Origin: Actinophytocola xinjiangensis
Lineage (GTDB): Bacteria > Actinomycetota > Actinomycetes > Mycobacteriales > Pseudonocardiaceae
Length of the DNA stretch: 64,000 bases
Direction of reading: 5' to 3'
Assembly (NCBI RefSeq): GCF_001921215.1
Contig: NZ_MSIF01000012.1
Location: forward strand, 186,001-250,000
Below the pieces are notes generated by a model. That model was not told the DNA's origin. It was given only the letters and a program-made list of their open reading frames with translations, and did no database searches. Each line of letters opens with the position of its first letter. The stretch's first letter is position 1. Below, in pieces: positions 21,871 to 33,050 of the stretch. Position numbers and translations under genes: made by a program.

Positions 21871-21876
21871 CATGAT
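21871..21876 (+). promoter_or_regulatory. Candidate leaderless -10 box of the TetR gene
   Basis: CATGAT lies seven bases before the GTG at 21884, matching the spacing seen at several other genes here. The same bases contain the two alternative ATG codons. Confidence 0.35.
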
Positions 21877-21883
21877 GGGGCGG

Positions 21884-22477
21884 GTGAGCACCGACTCCGT
21901 GACCGGGGGCTACCTCAAGGGGCGGATCCGCCGGGAGGACATCCTCACCGCCGCCGTCGCCGTCTACGGGGAGGCCGGGTACCACGGGTCGTCGCTGCGG
22001 GAGGTCGCCAAACGTGCCGGGATCACCCACGCCGGGCTGCTCTACTACTTCCCGACGAAGGAAGCGCTGCTCGCGGCCGTGCTGGAGCGGCGTGACGCCG
22101 AGGACGCCGAGCGGGAGCACCTCGGGGCCCCGCCCGGCCTGGAGGTCCTGCGCAACCTGATCGCGCTGGCCGAGTACAACGTCGCCCATCCGGGGATCGT
22201 GGACCTGTACTCGCGGCTCGCGGCCGAGGCGGTGGCGCCCGACCATCCGGCGCACGACTACTTCGTGCGGCACTACCGGCTGGTGCGGACCTCGGCGTCG
22301 GAGTCGTTCCGGGTGTTGGCCGGGCGGGGGGAGTTGCGGGCGGGGATCGACCCGAGGGTCGCGGCGACGACGTTCGTCGCGTTGATGGACGGGTTGCAGG
22401 TGCAGTGGCTGACCACGCCGGACGAGGTGGACCTCGTCGCGACGTTGCGCCGCTACCTGGACAGCGTGCTCGCGTAG
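21884..22477 (+). CDS. TetR-family transcriptional regulator
   Basis: The 197-residue regulator has an N-terminal helix-turn-helix: RREDILTAAVAVYGEAGYHG, then LREVAKRAGITHAGLLYYFP and TKEALLAAVLE. The C-terminal ligand domain is not diagnostic. GTG at 21884 is chosen because of the -10-like CATGAT seven bases upstream; ATGs at 21872 and 21875 are alternatives. Its 3' end overlaps the convergent oxidoreductase by 25 bp. It is a reasonable but unproven candidate regulator of that neighbouring operon. Confidence 0.88.
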   Translation: MSTDSVTGGYLKGRIRREDILTAAVAVYGEAGYHGSSLREVAKRAGITHAGLLYYFPTKEALLAAVLERRDAEDAEREHLGAPPGLEVLRNLIALAEYNVAHPGIVDLYSRLAAEAVAPDHPAHDYFVRHYRLVRTSASESFRVLAGRGELRAGIDPRVAATTFVALMDGLQVQWLTTPDEVDLVATLRRYLDSVLA

Positions 22478-23559
22478 GGGTCCCAGGTCGCCGGCAGGGC
22501 CGGTGGGACCTCGACGCTGCTGGTCACCTCGACCGGGCGGTGGGCGGTCAGCGACTCGTCGATCGAGAGCATGGTGTCCAGCACGTGGTAGGCCACCTCG
22601 CCGGACGCACGCTCGGGGACACCGGCCCGGACCGCCCTGGCCAGTTCGAGCGCGCCGGTGCCCCGGGAGGCGCCGTGACCGGTCGGGGACAGCTCACGCG
22701 GCTCCTCGGACTCGGGCGTGTACAGCAGCGTGGTGCCGGTGAACGTGTTCGGGTCGGGGAGCACGGCCGCGCCCAGCGTGCCGGTGACCTCCAGGGTCAC
22801 CCGGCGCAGCGCCGAGTCGAAGCTGAGCACCAGTTGGGCGGCGCCGCCGCGTTCGAACTCGACCAGCGCGCTGACCGTGGTCGGCACGGCGACCGGGAAC
22901 TCGGTGCCGGCCCGGGGCCCCGAGCCGATGACCCGGGTCGCGCGGGTGGCGCCGCCGGCCGCGCTGACCCGGCCGACCGGTCCGAACAGCTGCACCAGCT
23001 CGGTCAGGTAGTAGGGGCCCATGTCCAGCAGCGGGCCGCCGCCGGCCGCGTAGAGGAACTCCGGCGCGGGGTGCCAGCTTTCCGGGCCGGGGGTCTGGAA
23101 CACGGCCAGCGCGGCGCGCGGCTCGCCGATCCGGCCGGCGTCCACGGCCCGGCGCGCGGTCTGCAGACCGGCGCCGAGCACGGTGTCCGGCGCGCTGGCC
23201 ACCCGCAGACCTTTCTCGCGTGCCCGGTCCAGCAGCTTGCGGCCGCTTTCCCGGTCCAGGGCGAGGGGTTTCTCGGCCCACACGTGTTTGCCGGCGTCGA
23301 GGGCGGCGAGCCCGACCTCGACGTGCGCGGCCGGGATCGTCAGGTTCACCACCAGCTCGATCTCCGGGTCGGCGAGCAGTTCGGCGACGCTGCCCGAGCG
23401 GGGGACGCCGTGGTTGGCGGCCTGGGTGTTGGCCCGCTCCAGGTCGAGGTCGGCGACCATGAGCACCCGCAGGTCGGGGAAGCTGGTCAGGTTCGTCAGG
23501 TACGTGTCGCTGATGACGCCGGCGCCGATGACGCCGACGCCGACCTGTCCGGTGCTCAC
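22453..23559 (-). CDS. Gfo/Idh/MocA family oxidoreductase
   Basis: The 368-residue NAD(P)-dependent oxidoreductase acts on a sugar or inositol derivative. It begins with the Rossmann motif GVGVIGAGVISDTYL and has the family EKP motif in HVWAEKPLALD at about residue 95. GGGPLLDMGPYYLTELVQ is the substrate-side segment. The GTG start overlaps the stop of the isomerase-like gene upstream (GTGA), so the two are translationally coupled. The exact substrate cannot be told. Confidence 0.9.
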   Translation of the reverse strand: MSTGQVGVGVIGAGVISDTYLTNLTSFPDLRVLMVADLDLERANTQAANHGVPRSGSVAELLADPEIELVVNLTIPAAHVEVGLAALDAGKHVWAEKPLALDRESGRKLLDRAREKGLRVASAPDTVLGAGLQTARRAVDAGRIGEPRAALAVFQTPGPESWHPAPEFLYAAGGGPLLDMGPYYLTELVQLFGPVGRVSAAGGATRATRVIGSGPRAGTEFPVAVPTTVSALVEFERGGAAQLVLSFDSALRRVTLEVTGTLGAAVLPDPNTFTGTTLLYTPESEEPRELSPTGHGASRGTGALELARAVRAGVPERASGEVAYHVLDTMLSIDESLTAHRPVEVTSSVEVPPALPATWDPYASTLSR

Positions 23560-24290
23560 CGCGTGCCCCCGTTCAGGTAGGCCCGGCTGGCGGCCAGGCC
23601 GTCGAAGATGTCCCCGGCGTACTGGTCGAACTCGACGACGCGCAGGGCGTCGGGCGCGGCGGCGAGCACGTTGGCGATCGGCATCCGGCCTTGGCCGGCG
23701 GGGACCTGGCCGGTGGCGTCGGTGGCCAGGTCGCCGTCCTTGACGTGCAGTGCGCGGACCCGGGAACCCAGGCGCCGCAACAGGTCCGGGGCGTCGGCGC
23801 CGCCGGCGGCTGCCCAGTAGGTGTCGACCTCCAGCACCACCTGGGGGTCGAGGTGGTCGACGAGCACCTCGAGTGCGGTGCGCCCGCCGAGCTGGATCTC
23901 CAGCTCCCACCAGTGGTTGTGGTAGCCGACGGTCAGGCCGTGGCCGGCGGCCAGTGCGGCGGCCTCGTTGAGTGCGGTCGCGGTGGCCGCCACGTCGGCC
24001 TCGGTCCGCCAGTGTTCGGCGGGCACGTGCGGTTCGATGACCAGCTCCACGCCGCACTCGGCGGCGGCGGCGAACACGGCGGGCTGGTCGGCGTCGACGA
24101 GCGCGGCGTGGGTGGTCGGGGCGGTGAGTCCGGCCGAGGTCAGGCCGGTGCGCAGGATCTGGGCGTGGTCGAGCAGCCGGAAGGGCTCGACCTGGGTGAA
24201 CCCCAGGCCGGCCAGCCGGTCGAGGGTCTCGGTCGGCCGGTCCGCGAACGCCTCGCGGACCGAGTACAGCTGGACGGACAGATTGCTCAT
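23556..24290 (-). CDS. Sugar phosphate isomerase/epimerase-like TIM-barrel protein
   Basis: The 244-residue protein belongs to the xylose-isomerase-like (AP endonuclease family 2) TIM barrels. Seen are the N-terminal NLSVQLYSVREAF, the HNHWWELE metal-region motif, VLEVDTYWAAAGG and HVKDGDL. Such proteins are usually paired with Gfo/Idh/MocA dehydrogenases in sugar or inositol catabolism, as here. The ATG at 24290 is the first of the operon, just behind two palindromic operators. In-frame codons upstream to 24365 would run through those operators and are not used. Confidence 0.88.
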   Translation of the reverse strand: MSNLSVQLYSVREAFADRPTETLDRLAGLGFTQVEPFRLLDHAQILRTGLTSAGLTAPTTHAALVDADQPAVFAAAAECGVELVIEPHVPAEHWRTEADVAATATALNEAAALAAGHGLTVGYHNHWWELEIQLGGRTALEVLVDHLDPQVVLEVDTYWAAAGGADAPDLLRRLGSRVRALHVKDGDLATDATGQVPAGQGRMPIANVLAAAPDALRVVEFDQYAGDIFDGLAASRAYLNGGTR

Positions 24291-24321: not shown

Positions 24322-24337
24322 ATGGGAGCGCTCCCAT
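24322..24337 (-). promoter_or_regulatory. LacI-family-type operator
   Basis: ATGGGAGCGCTCCCAT is a perfect 16-bp palindrome. Its core TGGGAGCGCTCCCA is the sequence I know as the CebR-type LacI-family operator of streptomycetes. It lies 31 bp before the isomerase-like gene start. Confidence 0.8.
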
Positions 24338-24339
24338 AC

Positions 24340-24361
24340 ATTTCTACCACGTGGTAGAAAT
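24340..24361 (-). promoter_or_regulatory. Second perfect palindromic operator
   Basis: The 20-bp core TTTCTACCACGTGGTAGAAA is a perfect palindrome, extended to 22 bp by an A/T pair. It sits two bases from the LacI-type site, so two regulators, or one with two dimers, may meet on this promoter. I do not recognise the regulator. Confidence 0.75.
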
Positions 24362-24404
24362 TCACACCAGAGTCTTGCCGTGACCGCCCGCTCGGACCCC
24401 CGCC

Positions 24405-32752: not shown

Positions 32753-32924
32753 CTCGGGTCTTGCGAAGCAGGGCCGAGAACGCCGAGGACGGGACGGACA
32801 GCTGTCCGTCGCTGGGGTTCTTGGAGTCACGGAGACGGGCGAGGGTGTCGGTTAACCGCACCTCGACGCAGTTGTCGCTGCCGGAAGTGCTGTGGCTGCT
32901 CTTGAGCCAGCCGGTGTCACGCAT
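32745..32924 (-). CDS. DUF397 protein, second tandem copy
   Basis: A 59-residue protein, MRDTGWLKSSHSTSGSDNCV at the start, whose last ~41 residues (from about DNCVEV to the end) are identical to those of the first copy. Start and stop overlap the neighbours by eight bases on both sides. The near-perfect DNA identity with copy one shows a recent duplication or gene conversion. Confidence 0.87.
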   Translation of the reverse strand: MRDTGWLKSSHSTSGSDNCVEVRLTDTLARLRDSKNPSDGQLSVPSSAFSALLRKTRDA

Positions 32925-33050
32925 CTCGGGTCTTGCGAAGCAGGGCCGAGAACGCCGAGGACGGGACGGACAGCTGTCCGTCGCTGGGGTTCTTGGAGTC
33001 ACGGAGACGGGCGAGGGTGTCGGTTAACCGCACCTCGACGCAGTTGTCGC
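32745..33050 (-). repeat. Direct repeat of 172-bp period inside the DUF397 array
   Basis: Bases 32745-32878 and 32917-33050 are identical as far as I can read, with a period of 172 bp. The identity stops at the codons just before DNCV. It covers most of two DUF397 genes and their junctions. Confidence 0.85.

Follow-up and report, generated by a model that had tools for sequence, protein, structure and literature searches.

Operators of the LacI type are expected to carry a fixed central CG between their half-sites, and several proteins of that family share similar operator cores. Among TetR proteins autoregulation is common, and the operator of Escherichia coli RutR has the consensus TTGACCAnnTGGTCAA. 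This operator is palindromic and about 16 bp long, according to the parts of the source used here (PMC10891134). The consensus operator of the LacI-family repressor CebR in Streptomyces is given as TGGGAGCGCTCCCA in the portion of PMC5332605 used here, and proteins of the PF01261 family are paired with Gfo proteins in levoglucosan metabolism (PMC10066097, in the portion used).

Here we describe a promoter of the soil actinobacterium Actinophytocola xinjiangensis, found in a 64-kb stretch of DNA (the window, that is, the whole stretch that was analyzed), in which two palindromes of different sequence lie side by side. From sequence comparison we read it as a composite promoter, with a TetR-type repressor predicted to act on one palindrome (P2) and a CebR-type repressor on the other (P1), and we give this reading, including binding, repression, release by a ligand and the way in which the two would act jointly, a probability of roughly four in five.

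Two adjacent palindromes upstream of the XI-Gfo operon

The features around the two palindromes are as follows.

21875..22477, plus strand: TetR-family regulator gene (tetR), about 200 aa, start codon uncertain; Pfam TetR_N and TetR_C_6; candidate P2-binding repressor
22453..23559, minus strand: Gfo/Idh/MocA oxidoreductase gene (Gfo), 368 aa; Pfam PF01408 (GFO_IDH_MocA) and PF22725
23556..24290, minus strand: xylose-isomerase-like TIM-barrel gene (XI), 244 aa; Pfam PF01261 (AP_endonuc_2), E 1.7e-12; first gene of the operon
24322..24337, no strand: P1, predicted CebR (LacI-family) operator, containing the CebR box TGGGAGCGCTCCCA; 24 exact genomic copies
24340..24361, no strand: P2, predicted operator of the adjacent TetR-family regulator; one strong genomic copy found, present in 57 of 60 orthologous promoters and co-occurring with TetR

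An earlier note on this DNA had described two distinct perfect palindromes two bases apart in front of a coupled isomerase-like/Gfo-Idh-MocA gene pair, and this description holds. P1 (ATGGGAGCGCTCCCAT, 16 bp, 24322-24337) and P2 (ATTTCTACCACGTGGTAGAAAT, 22 bp, 24340-24361) are both perfect and separated by two bases, the Pfam matches identify the two enzyme genes, and these genes overlap by 4 bp. P1 ends 31 bp before the XI ATG (start codon at 24290); since the operon is encoded by the minus strand, P2 is the more upstream of the two sites. The TetR-family gene is convergent with the Gfo gene and overlaps its end by 25 bp. The pairing of PF01261 with Gfo proteins led us to consider levoglucosan metabolism for XI-Gfo, and this was rejected at 49 bits for the Gfo protein against a levoglucosan dehydrogenase cutoff of 650.

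The claim that palindromes of such length are rare by chance stands for the 22-mer and falls for the 16-mer. When the window was resampled 100 times under a first-order Markov model, chance gave an expectation of 0.07 perfect palindromes of exactly 22 bp per 64-kb window, as against 2.4 of 16 bp. P2 is the longest perfect palindrome within the window. The 22-mer alone is improbable by chance, and the striking feature is the adjacency of P1 and P2. Elsewhere in the window one perfect 18-bp palindrome, GACGGACAGCTGTCCGTC, is present in two copies (32793-32810 and 32965-32982) within a direct repeat with a period of 172 bp, which presumably reflects tandem DUF397-type genes.

P1 and the predicted CebR regulon

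The CebR/LacI-type core that the earlier note saw in the 16-bp palindrome is present as an exact match to the 14-bp CebR consensus, near the start of the target gene (PMC5332605, in the portion used). Over the 9.5 Mb of the genome this core is found 24 times without a mismatch, and 32 times when at most one mismatch is allowed, against four for the pattern read backward. Fifteen of the loci with the 24 exact boxes were examined, and ten proteins at nine of these were scanned with Pfam: three LPMO_10 proteins, a GH5 cellulase, a ThuA/GSDH protein, a GSDH protein, an adjoining LacI-family regulator and solute-binding protein (SBP), a BNR/sortilin-type repeat protein, and one protein without a Pfam match. 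The LacI-family gene, which has a CebR box before it and adjoins the SBP gene, is on the same contig (C4). Because the consensus occurs in 24 exact copies, some of them by LPMO, cellulase and lacI-type genes, P1 is most likely a member of the CebR regulon, as a predicted site.

A LacI-family repressor other than CebR, with a similar box, is an unlikely but plausible occupant of P1. Similar cores are common to several proteins of the family, and promoters of the g28 (Kibdelosporangium-type) genomes, like a second Kutzneria site described below, carry TGAGAGCGCTTCCA, two bases off the CebR consensus. What weighs against such a repressor is the set of 24 exact consensus copies, some of which stand before LPMO_10, GH5 and lacI-type/SBP genes, an arrangement described for the CebR regulon of Streptomyces (PMC5332605, in the portion used). 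A cluster of three CebR boxes lies within 3.1 kb of the same genome (C1:1054727-1057828, L006-L008), and the protein next to its first box combines ThuA and glucose/sorbosone dehydrogenase domains, a hint that the cellulose regulon of this genome includes sugar oxidation.

Conservation of P2 across orthologous promoters

An XI protein match at E<=1e-70 was found in 60 of the 346 genomes of the window's family, and all 60 regions were examined. P2 lies upstream of XI-Gfo in 57 of these orthologous operons, and is missing upstream in G031 and G066, both of the window's genus, and in G344; a position weight matrix (PWM) scan agrees, with a best score of 11.3 in G031 and nothing found at the G066 and G344 promoters. 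The earlier note had made its reading depend on the palindromes being kept before orthologous operons in related genomes, which they are: P2 in 57 of 60, with a CebR-type box beside it in 27 of the 57. Two public record titles look wrong, with L221 named "Rhodococcus rhodnii" as against a g28 genome (G093) and L239 named "Melainabacteria" as against G011, of the window's family.

Weighted by genus, the motif of the 57 sites is AATTTyTACCAnnTGGTAGAAATT; because the rows were selected by the pattern ACC[AG]NNTGGTA or by a looser one, the selection itself accounts for part of the invariance at those letters. Depending on the genus, the first half usually reads TTTCTACCA, TTTTGACCA or TACTTACCA, while the downstream half, TGGTAGAAAT, is less variable, and the two central bases are free (CG, GG, AG, CC, GA and others). 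Across 986 kb of loci the PWM, built from the same sites that it then scored, finds one site of at least 32 in each of the 57 and nothing else above 14.4. In many g16 (Amycolatopsis) promoters, for example L086 and L101, CCGTCCGG and CGGACGG arms are seen by eye on both sides of P2.

A search of the A. xinjiangensis genome with the 18-bp core of P2 at up to three mismatches returned the exact site and two places at three mismatches, against two for the backward pattern, and a looser pattern (two mismatches) matched at least three places besides P2. One of these scored 21.0 with the PWM against 43.4 for P2, and look-alikes of it turn up in the TetR-less G031 and G066; P2 as an operator with many targets in this genome was not borne out by the matches listed. 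The check proposed in the earlier note, whether the second palindrome recurs before other sugar operons of the genome, gave no second strong P2 among the matches listed in these searches.

In the family as a whole, a pattern scan matched in 37 of 346 genomes, with 17 matches at the XI promoter and 20 at other places (hand counts). The backward control matched in 19 of 346 (hand count), so the 20 non-promoter matches look like background. Unrelated-looking places picked by pattern genome-wide reach PWM scores of up to 26.7, and scores near 20 are thus weak evidence. Among 394 class genomes one match outside the family to part of P2, in G554 (the backward control also matched in one genome), was dismissed as chance, with a score of 15.8, no operon gene near and no second half-site.

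Co-occurrence of P2 with a TetR-family gene

The protein encoded at 21875..22477 contains a TetR_N DNA-binding domain (55.2 bits against a cutoff of 24, E 6.1e-15) and a TetR_C_6 ligand domain (41.6 bits against 27, E 1.6e-10). At E<=1e-60, an orthologue of it is present in 56 of the 346 family genomes; these 56 belong to the 60 that have the operon, none of the other 286 has one, and P2 is present in 56 of 56. The earlier note had proposed looking for a regulator gene that co-occurs with the second palindrome across relatives, and the TetR gene beside the operon is such a gene. The orthologue set equals the 60 operon genomes minus G031, G066, G344 and G011 (lists compared by eye), so that the operons without P2 sit in genomes without a TetR orthologue: G031 and G066 have nothing at E<=1e-30, and the best match in G344 is 47% identical. 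G011 has P2 and no detectable orthologue (40% at best) in an assembly that is 74% complete and whose contig ends in the XI gene. In G132, a sixth genome of the genus, XI (E<=1e-60), TetR (E<=1e-30) and P2 are all absent.

The regulator gene lies in the operon locus in 52 of 60 loci. In G322 the operon locus stops at a contig edge and tetR is on another contig; in three g23 genomes (two Umezawaea) tetR lies away from the operon, yet P2 is kept at the operon, and no P2 was found within 12 kb of the displaced gene. A wider set of 80 of 353 loci, many from the same genomes as the 60, has P2 in 45, with TetR inside the locus in 41. The remaining four comprise two Umezawaea (with tetR elsewhere), Nucisporomicrobium (about 4 kb past the operon) and G011 (broken contig), and the 35 P2-less loci, some of them shortened by contig ends, gave no TetR match at E<=1e-6. 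Outside the family, TetR and P2 occur together in two Virgisporangium, Nucisporomicrobium and Stackebrandtia, and 16 other outgroup genomes have no TetR match above 46% identity and no P2 in the operon locus. Among 23 named genomes searched for TetR, with P2 looked for in operon loci only, four with P2 have an orthologue of 65-77% identity; the 19 without P2 have a match of 47% at best, and eight of these have nothing at E<=1e-30.

A quick tree built from 80 XI proteins (60 family and 20 outgroup loci) shows concordant TetR and P2 states in 79 of 79 rows scored, with four changes each. This amounts to four independent contrasts on the best tree and one on well-supported branches, so few that a sign test cannot reach significance. 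As gene and site co-occur across genomes, the neighboring TetR-family protein is probably the regulator of P2, and the best candidate. The orientation of tetR, convergent and not divergent to its supposed target operon, counts against it. Autoregulation of tetR through P2 was considered and set aside, as the tetR promoters of the scanned loci yielded no P2.

P2 does not have the fixed central CG of LacI-type operators, as its two central bases vary over the 57 sites; this free center, and the way the site tracks the TetR gene, led us to reject P2 as a second LacI-family site. The more general proposal, that P2 is bound by some other regulator (a second LacI-family protein or a paralogous TetR) and that this TetR is a passive inherited neighbor, we regard as quite improbable. 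With tetR near the operon in 52 of 60 loci and few independent changes, the co-occurrence could be hitchhiking, and a 48% identical TetR paralogue in Virgisporangium has a P2-like site of its own. Yet in the three g23 genomes tetR is found elsewhere and is retained with P2, and both within the window's genus and in Nonomuraea the operon stays while P2 is absent where TetR is absent; the free center, as against the central CG of LacI-type sites, also speaks against this proposal.

Promoter layout and proposed mechanism

Two further elements, both tentative, are placed on the minus strand.

24365..24370, minus strand: CTGGTG, tentative -35 element (inferred), 18 nt upstream of TAGAAA; CTGG 0.95-1.00 conserved, genus-weighted, in 57 promoters
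24341..24346, minus strand: TAGAAA, tentative -10 element (inferred), inside the P2 downstream half TGGTAGAAAT; TACAAA is kept in G031

Across promoters the upstream element takes the form CTGGyG, 18 bp from TAGAAA, and a sigma-70 scan found no consensus promoter here. The TetR-less G031 (A. gossypii) keeps CTGG, the CebR box and, together with TACAAA, the TGGTA half, and has TTCCGTGCA in place of the TTTCTACCA half of P2; an operator decaying over a promoter still in use would look like this. In G066 (A. xanthii) P2 is wholly gone and a CebR-like box is kept.

The stricter conservation of the downstream half, which fits an overlapping -10 region, could also mean that P2 is a promoter or structural element (a conserved -10 region or a leader hairpin) and no protein operator. 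We consider this very improbable, as the dyad symmetry of P2 is near-perfect around a free center, no terminator-like site was found at P2, and in G031 the promoter-like parts are kept while the other half-site has gone along with TetR. P2 is, moreover, found in none of the 33 non-Actinophytocola loci that lack TetR in the locus and have no known linked or unlinked orthologue.

In all 27 of the 57 promoters that have both sites, the centers of P2 and P1 are 20, 21 or 23 bp apart. The CebR-type box is missing in the other 30, namely 24 g16 (Amycolatopsis), five g20 (Kutzneria) and one g12; from this distribution, control by TetR looks general in the group and control by CebR facultative. Four Kutzneria g20 promoters (L114, L117, L118 and L120) have a dyad like GGTGACGnCGGTCACC on the immediate downstream side of P2, at the position that the CebR box takes in other genera, and this is possibly the site of yet another repressor.

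We propose that P2 serves as operator for the TetR-family protein whose gene lies at the operon's far end, and that P1, centered 21 bp downstream, is a CebR operator that would tie the operon to the cellulose/cello-oligosaccharide regulon. As 21 bp is close to two helical turns, the two sites would lie on the same face of the DNA. A TetR dimer on P2 probably covers the spacer between the -35-like CTGGTG and the -10-like TAGAAA, with CebR on P1 probably lying over the start of transcription, so that full expression would need both repressors to be released. What was observed directly are the palindromes, the way they are conserved and spaced, and the co-occurrence of P2 with TetR. Of the earlier suggestion that the operon may integrate two sugar signals through two repressors, the idea of two repressors is supported, with two candidate regulator genes to fit two sites; the second sugar signal is not supported, and the probable partner of P2 is TetR-type.

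Recurrence of the two-site arrangement

A search of 15 genomes turned up a second P2 site in Kutzneria sp. 744 (G157), AATCTTGACCATATGGTAGAAATT, with a PWM score of 38.0 (L167:1440-1530; G157:C1:9694735). A CebR-type box, TGAGAGCGCTTCCA, is centered 21 bp away, and the pair stands directly before an MFS transporter gene; the XI promoter of the same genome is without a CebR-type box. In this one relative the second palindrome thus does recur, a recurrence that the earlier note had proposed to look for, here as a P2 and CebR-type pair before a transporter gene. Matches to the P2 pattern, with strands summed, number 32 against six backward in the five g20 genomes and 59 against 11 in the eight g28 genomes, and the known XI-promoter site gives at most two of those matches per genome. 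This excess over the backward controls suggests that there may be more P2 sites in g20 and g28, of which the G157 site is one.

The widest reading of these observations is tentative, and we rate it somewhat short of even odds: an undescribed TetR subfamily would respond to metabolites of beta-glucosides or 3-keto-sugars; P2 and a CebR-type box, 21 bp apart, would form a portable two-repressor AND gate; and the enzyme pair would have had its sensor (TetR or ROK) swapped and its CebR operator gained or lost over actinobacterial evolution. If this were true, the gate would open only with cello-oligosaccharides and a downstream glucoside intermediate both present; the module also stands before the Kutzneria transporter gene.

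Discussion

Each part of this promoter is of a known kind. We did not find this pairing of TetR regulator and P2 operator in the literature searched, the motif gave none plainly relevant among the matches listed, and a literature search for a TetR-family repressor with a GH3 beta-glucosidase in Streptomyces gave no match. The TetR-family regulator gains a predicted DNA site, a target operon and a candidate partner (CebR), and with these a ligand can be sought for the operon. Operator loss tracks repressor loss within one genus, and the same two enzymes would stand under TetR with CebR, TetR alone, or ROK according to lineage, a natural case of regulator replacement.

Comparison with E. coli RutR rests on a local alignment that spans the DNA-binding region only, in which 24 of 54 residues (44%) are identical. 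The consensus TTGACCAnnTGGTCAA resembles the g16 half-site of P2, TTTTGACCA, while the other g16 half, TGGTAGAA, differs. In the E. coli rutA-rutR stretch the consensus has one match at three mismatches, and 17 of 200 shuffles match too. The protein misses the RutR equivalog cutoffs (46.4 against 368 bits for TIGR03613, 48.2 against 230 for NF011584), and its best NCBIfam match is a ScbR-type model at 68 bits against a cutoff of 150.

TetR proteins 48-52% identical to this one occur in five of the 394 class genomes besides its own, in three families. A GH3 beta-glucosidase gene adjoins the roughly 50% identical TetR in L276 and L278, and L280 looks alike (not Pfam-scanned); in L277 the neighbors are a solute-binding protein and a Sde182-like protein. 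Palindromes like P2 precede the relatives' own tetR in L278 (PWM 20.1) and L280 (18.9), and those in L276, L277 and L279 score only 10-13.5. The 48% paralogue of Virgisporangium ochraceum (G757) is immediately preceded by AATTCCAACCACCTGGTAAGTATT (L331:2673-2696); opposite it stand a divergent MFS-like gene and, further on, a GH3-like gene (both judged by eye). At a PWM score of 32.0 this site equals the weakest true P2 sites, and the site specificity of the two TetRs may therefore overlap. The relatives (L276-L278, L280 and L331) resemble the present system in being about 50% identical and in having similarly arranged palindromes ahead of their own genes, with clear examples in L278, L280 and L331; they differ in their divergent layout, which is convergent here, and in their partners, which are GH3, MFS or SBP/Sde182 and not XI-Gfo. 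Since such relatives adjoin GH3 beta-glucosidase genes, our best guess by analogy is that a glucoside-derived metabolite is the ligand of the TetR.

Where TetR and P2 are both absent, a different arrangement is seen. In 16 of 33 such outgroup loci (L246, L247, L248, L251, L254, L257, L258, L260, L262, L263, L265, L268, L269, L270, L272 and L273) an inverted repeat, ACTTTTG-N12-CAAAAGT, lies upstream of XI. A ROK-type gene, assigned by Pfam in L248 only, stands on the other strand in 16 of 16 of these, and two more loci have the gene without a matched repeat. The repeat lies mostly over a TTGAC element. This ROK repressor of Leifsonia and Arthrobacter is comparable in that, judged by position, it would control XI-Gfo through a conserved inverted repeat; its protein family and DNA site are unrelated to TetR and P2.

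Another close system is the CebR/CelR regulon of Streptomyces, with which this genome shares the exact box, here too before LPMO, cellulase and lacI-type/SBP genes (PMC5332605, in the portion used). XI-Gfo is not among the Streptomyces scabies CebR targets in the portion of that source's table used here (PMC5332605). Unlike in Streptomyces, the box here shares its promoter with a second, unrelated putative operator.
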